Both the position numbers and the translations under genes were made by a program. From a bacterium (GTDB taxonomy: Bacteria > JALSQH01), in NCBI GenBank assembly GCA_026985515.1, contig JALSQH010000168.1:1-10066 (forward strand): a DNA stretch of 10,066 nt, written 5' to 3'. The first letter of the stretch is position 1, and each line of letters opens with the position of its first letter. The notes beneath the pieces were generated by a model that worked only from the letters and a program-made list of their open reading frames with translations, was not told the origin of the DNA and made no database searches. This document shows, one piece after another, positions 6,574 to 10,066 of the stretch.

Positions 6574-7307
6574 CTATATTCTTTCCTCTATTTCCCTGAA
6601 ACTCAATCCTTCTTTCATCTTCTTCAATCTTTCTTTTACTTCTTCTGGTATACTCTCATCTTCCATTAGCCTCATATATGGTGTTTTGGCTTCATGTTTT
6701 CTTATGTACCTCTTTCCCAGTCTTAATTTTTCCACAACTTTCATCGCCGGAATAAAAAAATTATATTTCAAATCCAGCCAGTAGTACAGTTCACCCATTA
6801 AATTTCTTGTCTTTTTACCAGTATATCTGCCATAGCCTACATTCTTCCTGACTACATATAAATTCCTGTTCTCCACATGGGGATTATCGTTGCTCCTGTG
6901 GGTCCTGCTACGAGTAAATTGTTTCTCCAACTCCCTGCAACAATTGTAAAAATGATCATTTATTAATACCTTAATATGACCGAACTGCCAAAATAAAGCT
7001 TCTGCTACAGGAAATAGAGTATTTCACCCAGATGCCTCGGATAAACAGGCTTCCTCCCTCTTTGATTAACTGCTTGTTTTGTGATATCAACTTTTATCTT
7101 TGTATTACCCTTCTTCGCAACAATCTTGTTATGAATGGATAAAAGATAGATCAAATACTTCCTGTGATAATCTGTACGGTCCTCCAGTACATCTAGAATC
7201 TCTTTTTGGGTCTTTTTCGGTGCATGTTTGTAGAACTTTTGCACCTTTGCAATCAGGTCCCCTTTGTCCTTGCTTGTTTCAACATCATAAAGTAAGATAA
7301 AAGTCAT
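6574..7307 (-). pseudogene. Broken rve/DDE-fold transposase (IS481/ISNCY-like), frameshifted and internally deleted
   Basis: Two minus-strand frames together form the remains of an integrase-fold transposase. The first runs from 7307 to a TAG at 7007-7005 and holds an N-terminal DNA-binding region ending RGRKPVYPRHLGEILYFL. The second is open from 7023 to 6574 and resumes with VAEALFWQFGHI, then INDHFYNCC and FTRSRTHRSNDNPHVENRN, which is the block around the third catalytic acid (Glu of HVE). It ends with the C-terminal RLMEDESIPEEVKERL segment of this family. From what I know of relatives, the stretch with the first two catalytic Asp residues, on the order of 130-170 residues, should lie between GHI and INDHF and is missing. 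The start at 7307 is chosen because AAGGA (7319-7315) lies 7 nt upstream; the open frame extends further, but across the leader hairpin. It cannot encode an active enzyme. Confidence 0.85.
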
Positions 7308-7332
7308 GTAATTATCCTTGTTGAGTTTTGAT

Positions 7333-7360
7333 GTGGTCGCACTCTTGTGGGTGCGGCCAC
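7333..7360. other. Hairpin in the transposase leader
   Basis: GTGGTCGCAC (7333-7342) pairs with GTGCGGCCAC (7351-7360) around an 8-nt loop. Nine Watson-Crick pairs and one G-U form if the plus strand is transcribed; on the minus strand the odd position is an A-C mismatch. It lies about 25 nt upstream of the transposase ATG and is more GC-rich than its surroundings. Several IS families carry such leader hairpins to hinder transcripts entering from outside. A terminator is less likely, because no clean T-run follows on either strand. Confidence 0.6.
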
Positions 7361-7435
7361 GAATTTTATTATCCAATTTTTTCTGAGTAAACACCACCTC
7401 TTTCGGTAAGATTATGTTTGAGTCAAAGAGCATCC

Positions 7436-7464
7436 TTGACAAAGTGAAATTTTGGGACAATAAT
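7436..7464 (+). promoter_or_regulatory. Strong predicted promoter for the CTCA-repeat gene
   Basis: A perfect TTGACA (7436-7441) is followed after exactly 17 bp by AATAAT (7459-7464, five of six). The start would fall near 7471, giving a leader of about 28 nt that contains the AGGAGG site of the next gene. It points out of the IS remnant into the accessory locus. Confidence 0.55.
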
Positions 7465-7486: not shown

Positions 7487-7492
7487 AGGAGG
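7487..7492 (+). promoter_or_regulatory. Strong ribosome binding site deciding the 7499 start
   Basis: AGGAGG lies six bases before the ATG at 7499. It is the best ribosome site in this part of the window and argues that the true gene begins at 7499, although the long open frame only becomes open after 7561. Confidence 0.8.
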
Positions 7493-7530
7493 GGTGAAAT
7501 GAAAAGCAAGAGATTTCAAAGACTTGTCTC

Positions 7531-7556
7531 CTCACTCACTCACTCACTCACTCACT
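7531..7556 (+). repeat. Tetranucleotide repeat (CTCA)6 plus CT, in the signal-peptide codons
   Basis: Six perfect CTCA units and a half unit occupy codons 11-19 and encode a Ser-Leu-Thr-His periodicity. Because 4 is not a multiple of 3, each gain or loss of a unit changes the frame. Such tracts are classic contingency loci, varying by slipped-strand mispairing. The present count is an OFF phase. Confidence 0.9.
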
Positions 7557-7576
7557 AATAATTTTTCAATTGTTTC

Positions 7577-9589
7577 TTGTGGGACCGGCTTTATTATTCC
7601 TCACGACAAATTCTTATGCCAGAAGGAGCAATAGATATTACGATCCTGGGATTTATTCAACATTTCATTATTGGTGGTAATTTTAATAACATGGGTAACA
7701 TAGAATTAAAGGGTATTTCCGGAAATATTCTTGTTTCTAATGTTCTTCATAATAAAGGAAATTTAAGAAGTAAAAATGGGGTTGTATATGCTCGAAAGAT
7801 AATAAATCAGGGTAACATAGAGGTTGAGGATGCAGTAGAAACGAAAGAATTTGTGGTGCCTCCAGAAATAGATTTTTCTACACTCTTTTCACGGGCAATA
7901 AGTACTGCAACATGGGTTTTTTATAGTGATGGTACTATCTCAAGTCCTGATGGAGAAGTAGAGGATACAATTAATATAGATGGATTAACATTTTCTTATG
8001 TAGCAAAACATCACAAAGGATATTGGAAAGTTACAGGTAGGGGAAGTGTAATTGGTAATCTTTACATTGAGGGCACTCTAAAAGTTGAAAGTGATGACAT
8101 TGCAATAACAGGTACTCTTGTTGTGACCGAAGATTTATTAATTGAGAAAGGTAACATAGTGAGGATTGACGGAATTGTTTTCCCTTCAGTTGTAGTAGGA
8201 GGTAAGCTTTCGTTAAAGAAGAAGTCTTATTTTTCTGGATCTATAAGAGCCGGGAGCTTGCTTATCTGTAAGGGTGCAAATGCGGATTTACTTGGAAGTG
8301 TAGAAGTTGCTGGTAATGTTAATAACCATGGTAAAATAACTATTACAGGTGGATCCCAGGAAGCAGAATTCATTGTTGCTCAATTATCTGAAAGGGGAAC
8401 ACTACCTCCCAATTCAAAACTGATTGGCTTGACGTACAGTGAAGGTGTTTCTGGTACACCATCTCTTATGTACGCTATTACAACTACTGGAAACATAAAT
8501 ATTACCAGAATTCTTAGTAATCCTTCAAGCATAACCACTGTTTCTCGTGCAAGTATTTCAATGACAGTTATTGGGCTCGATCCCATGTTAAGCGGGGTGC
8601 TTGAGATTCGAGATCACACTTTGCCACCTGAAGTTAAAGCATATTTTATTTCTCAGATGTTAAAAAGGGATGGATGGCTTAAACCTGTTTTAAAACGAAT
8701 GGTGAGAATACCCGGCTTATTGTCGCCTGTGGGAGAGTTTTATGACATTGGAGTAACACCTGAAGTTAAAATCGGATATTATGGACTGGATACGATTATA
8801 CCACGAAAGATAAAAGAATCCAGAATTTATGAAATGGTTCAGAAATACAAAGAAAAGCTGTATTCCCTACCGGATTCATATGTGGTGAAGAGGGAATTGA
8901 TAATGGCTTTTGAATGGAAGGAATTGACAGGCGAATTACCTGCATATGCATATGATTTATTAAATGAAGTCTCATTTTCACCTTCTTTCAGAAGTAAGAG
9001 CAGCTTTGGACCAATGGGGATTAAAATTCCTTCCTGCAGGACATATAAAATAACCAGAAAAATAATTCCTAAGACAAATTGGGATTTAACAAAGAGTGAG
9101 TATTACAAGTCAGCAGCTGATGTGGTTTATAGTGCATATGATCAATATTGGAACGATCATTATGGAGATAATTATTGGGTAGGTTGTGGACCCGTTGCAG
9201 CAGCTCTGGTTTTTCGTTACTGGGGTTTTGTTAACAGCAATTATGGTAGATGCTTACATGGTGATGACTATGAGTTGTTGGAGAAAATTCATGAAAAAGC
9301 GAATACAAGTGCTGATGGAGAAACTACCGTTTTTGATTTGGCTGAAGGAATCGAAAAGACTGCAAAGTATTATGGGATGAAATTTATTGCTGAAGTTGCT
9401 GTGGGAAGTGCTTCTTTTTTTGAGGATGAGGTTGATAGACATAGAATGGCTATTATGTTGGTACAGGATGATCCAGAATGGGGAAATCATTTTGTGGCTG
9501 TTTATGGTTATGAGGTGGAGCACCGGTGGGAAACGTGCTGCCACACGGATTCAATTTGTCCAGATCATCATTATGTAAGAGTAATTTAA
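7577..9589 (+). CDS. Main open segment: beta-solenoid-like region plus C39/papain-like cysteine peptidase domain
   Basis: This is the long open segment of the gene beginning at 7499. The TTG at 7577 is only a nominal start with no ribosome site. Residues about 40-340 are Gly/Asn/Val-rich and repeat short strands (NFNNMGNIELKG, NVLHNKGNLRSKNG, KIINQGNIEVED, SVEVAGNVNNHGKITITGG), as in right-handed beta-solenoids of adhesins or bactofilin-like polymers. A charged helical linker (about 350-500) leads to a cysteine peptidase-like domain: VGCGPVAAALVFRYWG with Cys537, and WGNHFVAVYGYE with His638, the Cys and His of C39/papain-fold peptidases. The third active-site region, expected as a strand VRVNLGW, is cut by the stop at 9587-9589 and continues in another frame. 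Six Cys residues near the end (including CCHTDSIC) could form disulfides outside the cell. An exported adhesin with self-processing or bacteriocin-like peptidase activity is possible; substrate unknown. Confidence 0.7.
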   Translation: MWDRLYYSSRQILMPEGAIDITILGFIQHFIIGGNFNNMGNIELKGISGNILVSNVLHNKGNLRSKNGVVYARKIINQGNIEVEDAVETKEFVVPPEIDFSTLFSRAISTATWVFYSDGTISSPDGEVEDTINIDGLTFSYVAKHHKGYWKVTGRGSVIGNLYIEGTLKVESDDIAITGTLVVTEDLLIEKGNIVRIDGIVFPSVVVGGKLSLKKKSYFSGSIRAGSLLICKGANADLLGSVEVAGNVNNHGKITITGGSQEAEFIVAQLSERGTLPPNSKLIGLTYSEGVSGTPSLMYAITTTGNINITRILSNPSSITTVSRASISMTVIGLDPMLSGVLEIRDHTLPPEVKAYFISQMLKRDGWLKPVLKRMVRIPGLLSPVGEFYDIGVTPEVKIGYYGLDTIIPRKIKESRIYEMVQKYKEKLYSLPDSYVVKRELIMAFEWKELTGELPAYAYDLLNEVSFSPSFRSKSSFGPMGIKIPSCRTYKITRKIIPKTNWDLTKSEYYKSAADVVYSAYDQYWNDHYGDNYWVGCGPVAAALVFRYWGFVNSNYGRCLHGDDYELLEKIHEKANTSADGETTVFDLAEGIEKTAKYYGMKFIAEVAVGSASFFEDEVDRHRMAIMLVQDDPEWGNHFVAVYGYEVEHRWETCCHTDSICPDHHYVRVI

Positions 9590-9861
9590 TTTTAGGATGG
9601 CCAACAGGTAATAACAATGACATAGAAATAGCTATGCGTTCGGTGGGATCTTGGTTTAGTAGTATTATAAATGAAACAAGCGGAATACAGGTTATTCCCT
9701 GGAAACCCTGTTCCTCAGGTGGGGGTGGAGGAGGTGGAGGTGGGGGAGGGTGTAGCATGGGAAATTTGAATCTGATGAGTGGAATATTCATTATTGTAGT
9801 GTTTGCCTTTATTATATTTAAACAGAGGTATAAAAAATGTTCGACAGGAAAAGATTGTTGA
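9583..9861 (+). CDS. Displaced 3' segment: peptidase end plus Gly11-Cys, membrane helix and basic tail
   Basis: This frame takes over at 9583, where the main frame ends. Reading AAT at 9583 after GTA gives VRV-NLILGWPTGNN, which restores the Asn-Gly-Trp strand expected after the active-site His of C39-like domains. It reads on through FSSIINETSGIQVIPW to a Cys-Ser-Ser, eleven Gly codons (9718-9750) and Cys-Ser-Met. A hydrophobic helix (SGIFIIVVFAFIIF) and the basic tail KQRYKK follow. Gly-rich linker, Cys, helix and basic end resemble Synerg-CTERM or MYXO-CTERM sorting tails. The frame is technically open from a GTG at 9526, but those upstream codons overlap the peptidase domain in another phase and look meaningless, so it is not a separate gene. 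It overlaps the lipoprotein gene by 25 nt. Confidence 0.7.
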   Translation, partial: NLILGWPTGNNNDIEIAMRSVGSWFSSIINETSGIQVIPWKPCSSGGGGGGGGGGGCSMGNLNLMSGIFIIVVFAFIIFKQRYKKCSTGKDC

Positions 9862-10066
9862 AAAAAAAGATTTTTTCTGTGCCAGTGTTAATTTTTGTTA
9901 TAAATTTGCTTTCATGCCATCCTGATTTTTGTGGCGGGCCATGCCATCCAGAATGGGTGGTTGATGGTGTAAAGGATATAGTTGTTTCTCCTCTTGAGAA
10001 TGGATTATCACTTATAACGCTTTATGTTGAAAATGAGGGAATGGAAACTTATTATTCAACGGGGAA
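9837..10066 (+). CDS. Lipoprotein, N-terminal part, truncated by the window end
   Basis: The ATG at 9837 follows GAGG (9825-9828) by 8 nt and the frame stays open to the window end (76 codons). The N-terminus has a Lys/Arg-rich start (RKRLLKKK), a hydrophobic core (FSVPVLIFVINLL) and a lipobox NLLSC, so signal peptidase II should cleave before Cys27 and leave a lipidated protein. After Cys27 comes HPDFCGGPCHPEW, a short Cys/His/Pro cluster that could form a disulfide or bind metal, then a beta-strand-rich stretch (IVVSPLENGLSLITLYVENEG) resembling an Ig-like or CARDB-like domain start; that last point is weak. The 25-nt overlap with the end of the peptidase gene suggests co-transcription and translational coupling. 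I do not recognise a family. Confidence 0.8.
   Translation, partial: MFDRKRLLKKKIFSVPVLIFVINLLSCHPDFCGGPCHPEWVVDGVKDIVVSPLENGLSLITLYVENEGMETYYSTG

Follow-up and report, generated by a model that had tools for sequence, protein, structure and literature searches.

Most known cases of repeat-driven phase variation come from pathogens and commensals adapted to a host. The nearest precedent for the genes described here is the opa family of Neisseria, a multigene family with a pentanucleotide (CTCTT)n tract in the leader-peptide region (PMC3960869). Among the hgp paralogs of Haemophilus influenzae the repeated unit is CCAA, and interrupted tracts have been ascribed to recombination between paralogs (PMC2651432). 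A third arrangement is seen in pil1 and pil3 of Streptococcus gallolyticus, where GCAGA repeats lie in a leader peptide and the pil1 mechanism requires a terminator (PMC3894217).

Here we consider a stretch of 10,066 nucleotides from an uncultured bacterium (contig JALSQH010000168.1; hereafter the window), in which a gene on the plus strand carries a CTCA tract. This tract very probably belongs to a group of simple-sequence contingency switches spread across a family of exported proteins. In the mechanism that we favour, a constant 5′ module consisting of promoter, strong Shine-Dalgarno sequence, ATG and short basic leader precedes a tetranucleotide tract, behind which lies the hydrophobic core of a signal peptide, and replication slippage by whole units would shift the reading frame. 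In one phase out of three the leader would supply the n-region to a complete signal peptide, and the cell would make and export the protein; in the two remaining phases, translation would end at the tract or shortly past it. Slippage and its rate, export, a surface position and a benefit from heterogeneity are what we infer, and individual cells can probably turn these exported proteins on and off at random.

With opa the family shares the organisation as an exported multigene family, the position of the tract in the signal-peptide coding region, ON/OFF control by reading frame and the diversification of paralogs through recombination. In contrast to opa, the unit here is a tetranucleotide that varies by paralog (CTCA, TCAT, ACCT, CCAA or CTTC), the tract lies between the n-region and the core, the proteins combine beta-repeats with a peptidase rather than forming beta-barrels, the host belongs to a distant uncultured lineage, and the switch is known from sequence alone. 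There is no match to the Opa family of outer-membrane beta-barrels; the bodies match bactofilin or C39 peptidases weakly, or subtilases clearly. The family is not a member of Opa and would only work like an Opa switch. The sequence-only reading had likened the locus to tetranucleotide contingency loci of Haemophilus and Neisseria; the nearer precedent is opa rather than the Haemophilus lic genes. What sets the present system apart from those already known is that one shared leader is combined with several different repeat units, and that it occurs in this host lineage. Our literature search turned up no description of a comparable system from an uncultured phylum, although such a negative says little about true absence. 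The occurrence of an Opa-like multigene switch in so remote an uncultured lineage suggests that bacteria far outside the host-adapted group are also served by random switching of exported proteins.

In the window copy, a sigma-70-like promoter (TTGACA-17-AATAAT, positions 7436–7464, plus strand) agrees with the consensus at 11 of 12 positions, and its position and form are common to the other leader loci. A Shine-Dalgarno sequence, AGGAGGGG (7487–7494, plus strand), read from the sequence and aligning with those of the other loci, precedes the start codon at 7499. The leader coding region (7499–7530, plus strand) specifies MKSKRFQRLVS, the basic n-region of a signal peptide, and leads into the (CTCA)6.5 tract at 7531–7556 (plus strand), which occupies codons 11–19 and matches the CTCA unit at 100% of its positions. 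In the present phase the ATG opens a peptide of 19 residues, MKSKRFQRLVSSLTHSLTH, closed by the OFF-frame stops TAA TAA directly 3′ of the tract (7556–7561, plus strand). With one unit more, two fewer or four more, reading would enter IIFQLFLVGPALLFLTTNSYA (7558–7620, plus strand, in the +1 or −2 unit frame), where the basic leader is followed by a hydrophobic core and a cleavage site of the A type, as judged by hydropathy and by eye. The tract is thus a short tandem repeat in the 5′ coding region with a unit length that is not a multiple of 3, as are those of the eight analogous leaders. None of 200 dinucleotide shuffles reproduced it, even when 3 mismatches were tolerated, and the CTCA pattern occurs once in the whole genome. 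The observation made from the letters of the window is borne out: a CTCA run in codons 11–19 behind a strong promoter and ribosome-binding site, stopped in the present phase by TAA TAA.

The window copy has relatives of the same design. Tract-bearing leaders were found at nine loci, that is, at least eight in the genome of the window and one in a sister genus (G001:C23). At least seven further loci of the window's genome have the same promoter and Shine-Dalgarno sequence, with a tetranucleotide tract between the only usable ATG and the signal peptide, and their units differ from the CTCA of the window: TCAT, ACCT, CCAA/ACCT or CTTC. The tracts are (TCAT)6 on contig C205, interrupted TCAT/TCAG units on C207, (ACCT)6 on C96, CCAA units followed by ACCT units on C110, (TCAT)3 on C11, (CTTC)2 on C65, (CTTC)4 on C106 and (TCAT)2 in the sister genus. 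The leader motif MK-x-x-[KR]-F-[QE] is kept in seven other leaders, the exceptions being C96 and C110 (MKLN...). Behind the tract, the body frame encodes a signal-peptide core at nine of nine loci, followed in most by a cleavage-like site and on C205 by a lipobox, all by hydropathy and eye. The repeat thus falls inside the part of the gene that encodes the signal peptide, in a multigene family of predicted exported proteins. Since the paralogs combine the same leader with different units and unit numbers, this genome illustrates how switches of this kind may originate, evolve and be lost.

These loci were reached by several routes. Searching the window's genome with the window body gave the paralogs on C96, C110, C65 and C11; the tracts of C96 and C110 were found by reading upstream of the bodies, that of C205 by a degenerate repeat scan of the genome, and those of C207 and G001:C23 by a leader scan. 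Further leaders lie on C11, C65 and C106, and C13 has a leader without a tract. When public sequences were scanned for relatives using the alignment of the family, 72 pattern hits came back, none of which was confirmed, and searches at the level of order, class and phylum returned the same two genomes only; in the collection searched, the phylum consists of just these two. With MazG as a taxonomic probe, the closest matches reached just 42–55% identity and came from many different phyla. On sister-genus contig G001:C23 (L009:926-1297, minus strand) there is a 123-aa version whose N-terminal repeat region runs straight into a Cys-hydrophobic-basic C-terminal tail.

Fusion of leader and body is not universal. 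On C13 (L042:2656-2712) the conserved leader is a separate, tract-free small ORF, MKSVKFQLLSSFKGGAQQ, which overlaps the ATG of the body (ATGA) and whose promoter closely resembles the one on C205, and the C205 gene has its own Shine-Dalgarno sequence and ATG 27 nt behind the tract. These two loci, and the fact that every leader at present ends as a small ORF, would fit a scheme in which the tract sets the length of a small leader ORF that controls the downstream gene by attenuation or coupling, in the manner of S. gallolyticus pil1. The pil genes indeed share with this family a repeat in a short leader ORF whose frame varies with unit number; there, however, a separate leader acts on a terminator, whereas here the leader completes a signal peptide. 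No intrinsic terminator-like hairpin was found between leader ORF and structural gene, 3′ of the tract, in the window, C110, C207 or C205, and attenuation of the pil1 type is disfavoured for that reason. Nor does leader control explain why the frame behind the tract should be that of a signal peptide throughout the family, or why C96 and C110 have no ATG, GTG or TTG that would keep the signal peptide of the body independent of the leader. We therefore regard this scheme as improbable, with translational coupling possible at C13 and C205.

The present phase of the family bears on whether the switches are alive. As assembled, none of the nine loci with a tract is in frame, so that no ON allele is seen among them. 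Were phases random, nine OFF states of nine would be expected with a chance of (2/3)^9 = 0.026, so OFF seems to be favoured in the sampled population, or the family is partly relic, or some other cause is at work. On a stronger form of the relic argument, the family was formerly phase-variable, all copies are now locked OFF and decaying, and the tracts are fossils. Extra frameshifts in the bodies of the window copy, C207, C11 and C65 point in this direction, as do the very short tracts of C11, C65 and G001:C23. The same may be said of a sister-genus gene related to C207 (G001:C144, L141), from which leader, tract and signal peptide are absent, the body following directly after the Shine-Dalgarno sequence. 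However, three of the tracts consist of 6 perfect units, where decay would introduce interruptions, and the body of C205 is open. Two more bodies are open from the signal peptide onwards despite an out-of-frame ATG, those of C96 (775 aa, cut by the contig end) and C110 (756 aa). In both genes the first ATG, GTG or TTG in the body frame behind the tract comes 57 codons on, beyond the signal peptide, so that export requires the ATG before the tract; most copies likewise have no alternative well-placed start in the body frame. The common part of C96 and C110 gives a dN/dS of about 0.32–0.38, from a small sample of 17–29 differences, and this best-preserved pair thus has intact bodies that are apparently under purifying selection. 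Untranslated genes would be expected to decay, and the open bodies and low dN/dS therefore argue for a switch rather than for decay alone. In silico, a change of unit number would toggle C96 and C110 between full-length and truncated products. We consider it unlikely that the whole family is a relic, although part of it may be dead, given the extra frameshifts, and tracts of 2–3 units (C65, C11, G001:C23) would slip rarely.

For the contingency-switch reading, the closest paralogs are the most informative. C96 and C110 share 95% identity over 956 bp, and the sequences of C65 and C106 hardly differ once the tract is passed. Within the tract, the members of either pair are set apart by a gap of exactly 8 bp, equal to two units, which changes the frame. 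These gaps are direct evidence of whole-unit length change, between recent paralogs rather than between alleles of one locus. They also bear on a quite different explanation, in which programmed ribosomal frameshifting in one fixed direction joins leader to body. Such a mechanism would suit the six of nine loci where the body is at offset 2 mod 3 relative to the leader, but the remaining three have the other offset, the repeat units vary between loci so that no common slippery site is seen, and the offset differs within both close pairs (C96/C110 and C65/C106). We accordingly hold programmed frameshifting to be very improbable. Phase-variable export, as first proposed for the window gene, is well supported for the family by the common architecture with different repeat units, the 8-bp steps between paralogs and, in most copies, the lack of another well-placed start in the body frame, but its application to the window copy is weakened by two further lesions, described below.

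The genomic background of such repeats was counted in 105 contig stretches amounting to 986 kb, or 42% of the genome. All five tetranucleotide arrays of at least four units were located in leaders and none elsewhere, an enrichment that we treat as qualitative since the sampled contigs were partly chosen for holding a leader. Outside the leaders in this sample, tetranucleotide arrays had three units only and other repeat classes were practically absent. Two degenerate scans of the whole genome found no other array of six units.

The window copy itself is a less favourable case. The sequence-only reading had held that one unit more or two fewer would restore a complete signal peptide, and reading does then enter the core and cleavage site; the restored frame, however, covers just 61 aa with one more unit, or 57 aa with two fewer, before stopping at TAA 7678–7680. 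This stop belongs to a second frameshift zone (7640–7680, plus strand), where the signal-peptide frame ends and homology to the paralog bodies resumes in another frame at about 7664, as placed by comparison with the paralogs and the sister-genus copy. The frameshift, at about 7660, separates the signal peptide from the body, and it is for this reason that a unit change yields so short a product. The body ORF of 670 aa (7577–9589, plus strand) lies in the frame that ATG 7499 has at present, so the tract alone is unable to restore the full protein. A 5-bp tandem duplication of AATTT (AATTTAATTT, 9583–9592, plus strand) then breaks the frame before the C-terminal part, which continues in another frame (9526–9861, plus strand) with poly-Gly-Cys, a hydrophobic segment and a basic, anchor-like tail; the C11 paralog reads through at this point. 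With these two lesions, a change in unit number would give no full-length protein. The window copy is probably either a decayed member of the family or affected by assembly errors, and it is probably no longer switchable to full length. Taking errors further, one might attribute the tracts as a whole to assembly or sequencing: the assembly is fragmented into 268 contigs, some of which stop inside these repeated genes, and several family members have the extra frameshifts already mentioned. Yet the tracts are short (about 8–33 bp) and interior to contigs, one design recurs at nine loci, and long genes elsewhere in the window have open frames, which makes an artefact of this kind extremely improbable.

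Turning to the proteins, the body of the window copy consists of a bactofilin-like beta-repeat region followed by a C39-like cysteine-peptidase region, the latter also present in C110; these are weak profile matches below the curated cut-offs. C207 combines a DUF7305/bactofilin-like region with a subtilase domain, C11 has subtilase-like motifs by eye, and the products of C205 and C13 look like lipoproteins. The C-termini of several copies carry poly-Gly, Cys, a hydrophobic segment and basic residues, a pattern that matched no curated model and suggests anchoring. A profile search against NCBIfam gave nothing above cut-off, a sequence search against solved structures gave no credible match, and the structure of the window body predicted from a single sequence (mean pLDDT 35) was set aside.

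The 5′ parts of C96, C110 and C65 (L005, L006 and L007) are 95–97% identical and their 3′ parts are strongly diverged, which points to recombination between paralogs, as in cassette exchange. A similar mosaic pattern can be seen at the other end of the gene, where window positions 9682–10066 and C11 (L004:718-1102) share a 3′ module that is 96% identical and covers the C-terminal anchor and the start of the downstream gene; upstream of it the two copies are only about 76% identical. The hgp genes offer a parallel in that tetranucleotide tracts occur in paralogs of one exported family, with interrupted tracts comparable to those of C110 and C207, but the proteins are others, the tracts here have 2–8 units against mostly 4–39, and several unit sequences occur among shared leaders (PMC2651432). 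A broader interpretation is tenable, if somewhat doubtful: the promoter, Shine-Dalgarno sequence, leader and tract may together form an exchangeable ‘contingency cassette’ placed, in an uncultured lineage of phylum rank, before exported proteins that are unrelated to one another (C39-like, subtilase, lipoprotein), with different units arising and turning over in place and most members OFF at any time.

Downstream of the gene in the window begins another (9837–10066, plus strand), truncated where the contig stops, whose N-terminus is that of an exported or lipoprotein-like product, and a similar downstream gene also follows the copies on C11, C65, C110 and C207. On the other side, two ORFs on the minus strand (118 and 151 aa, in different frames, 6574–7460) resemble a broken transposase-like gene adjoining the switch gene, and neither matched a Pfam family above cut-off. 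Between this transposase remnant and the promoter of the switch gene, positions 7332–7361 hold a strong hairpin of 13 pairs closed by a loop of 4, and its tail is rich in T.
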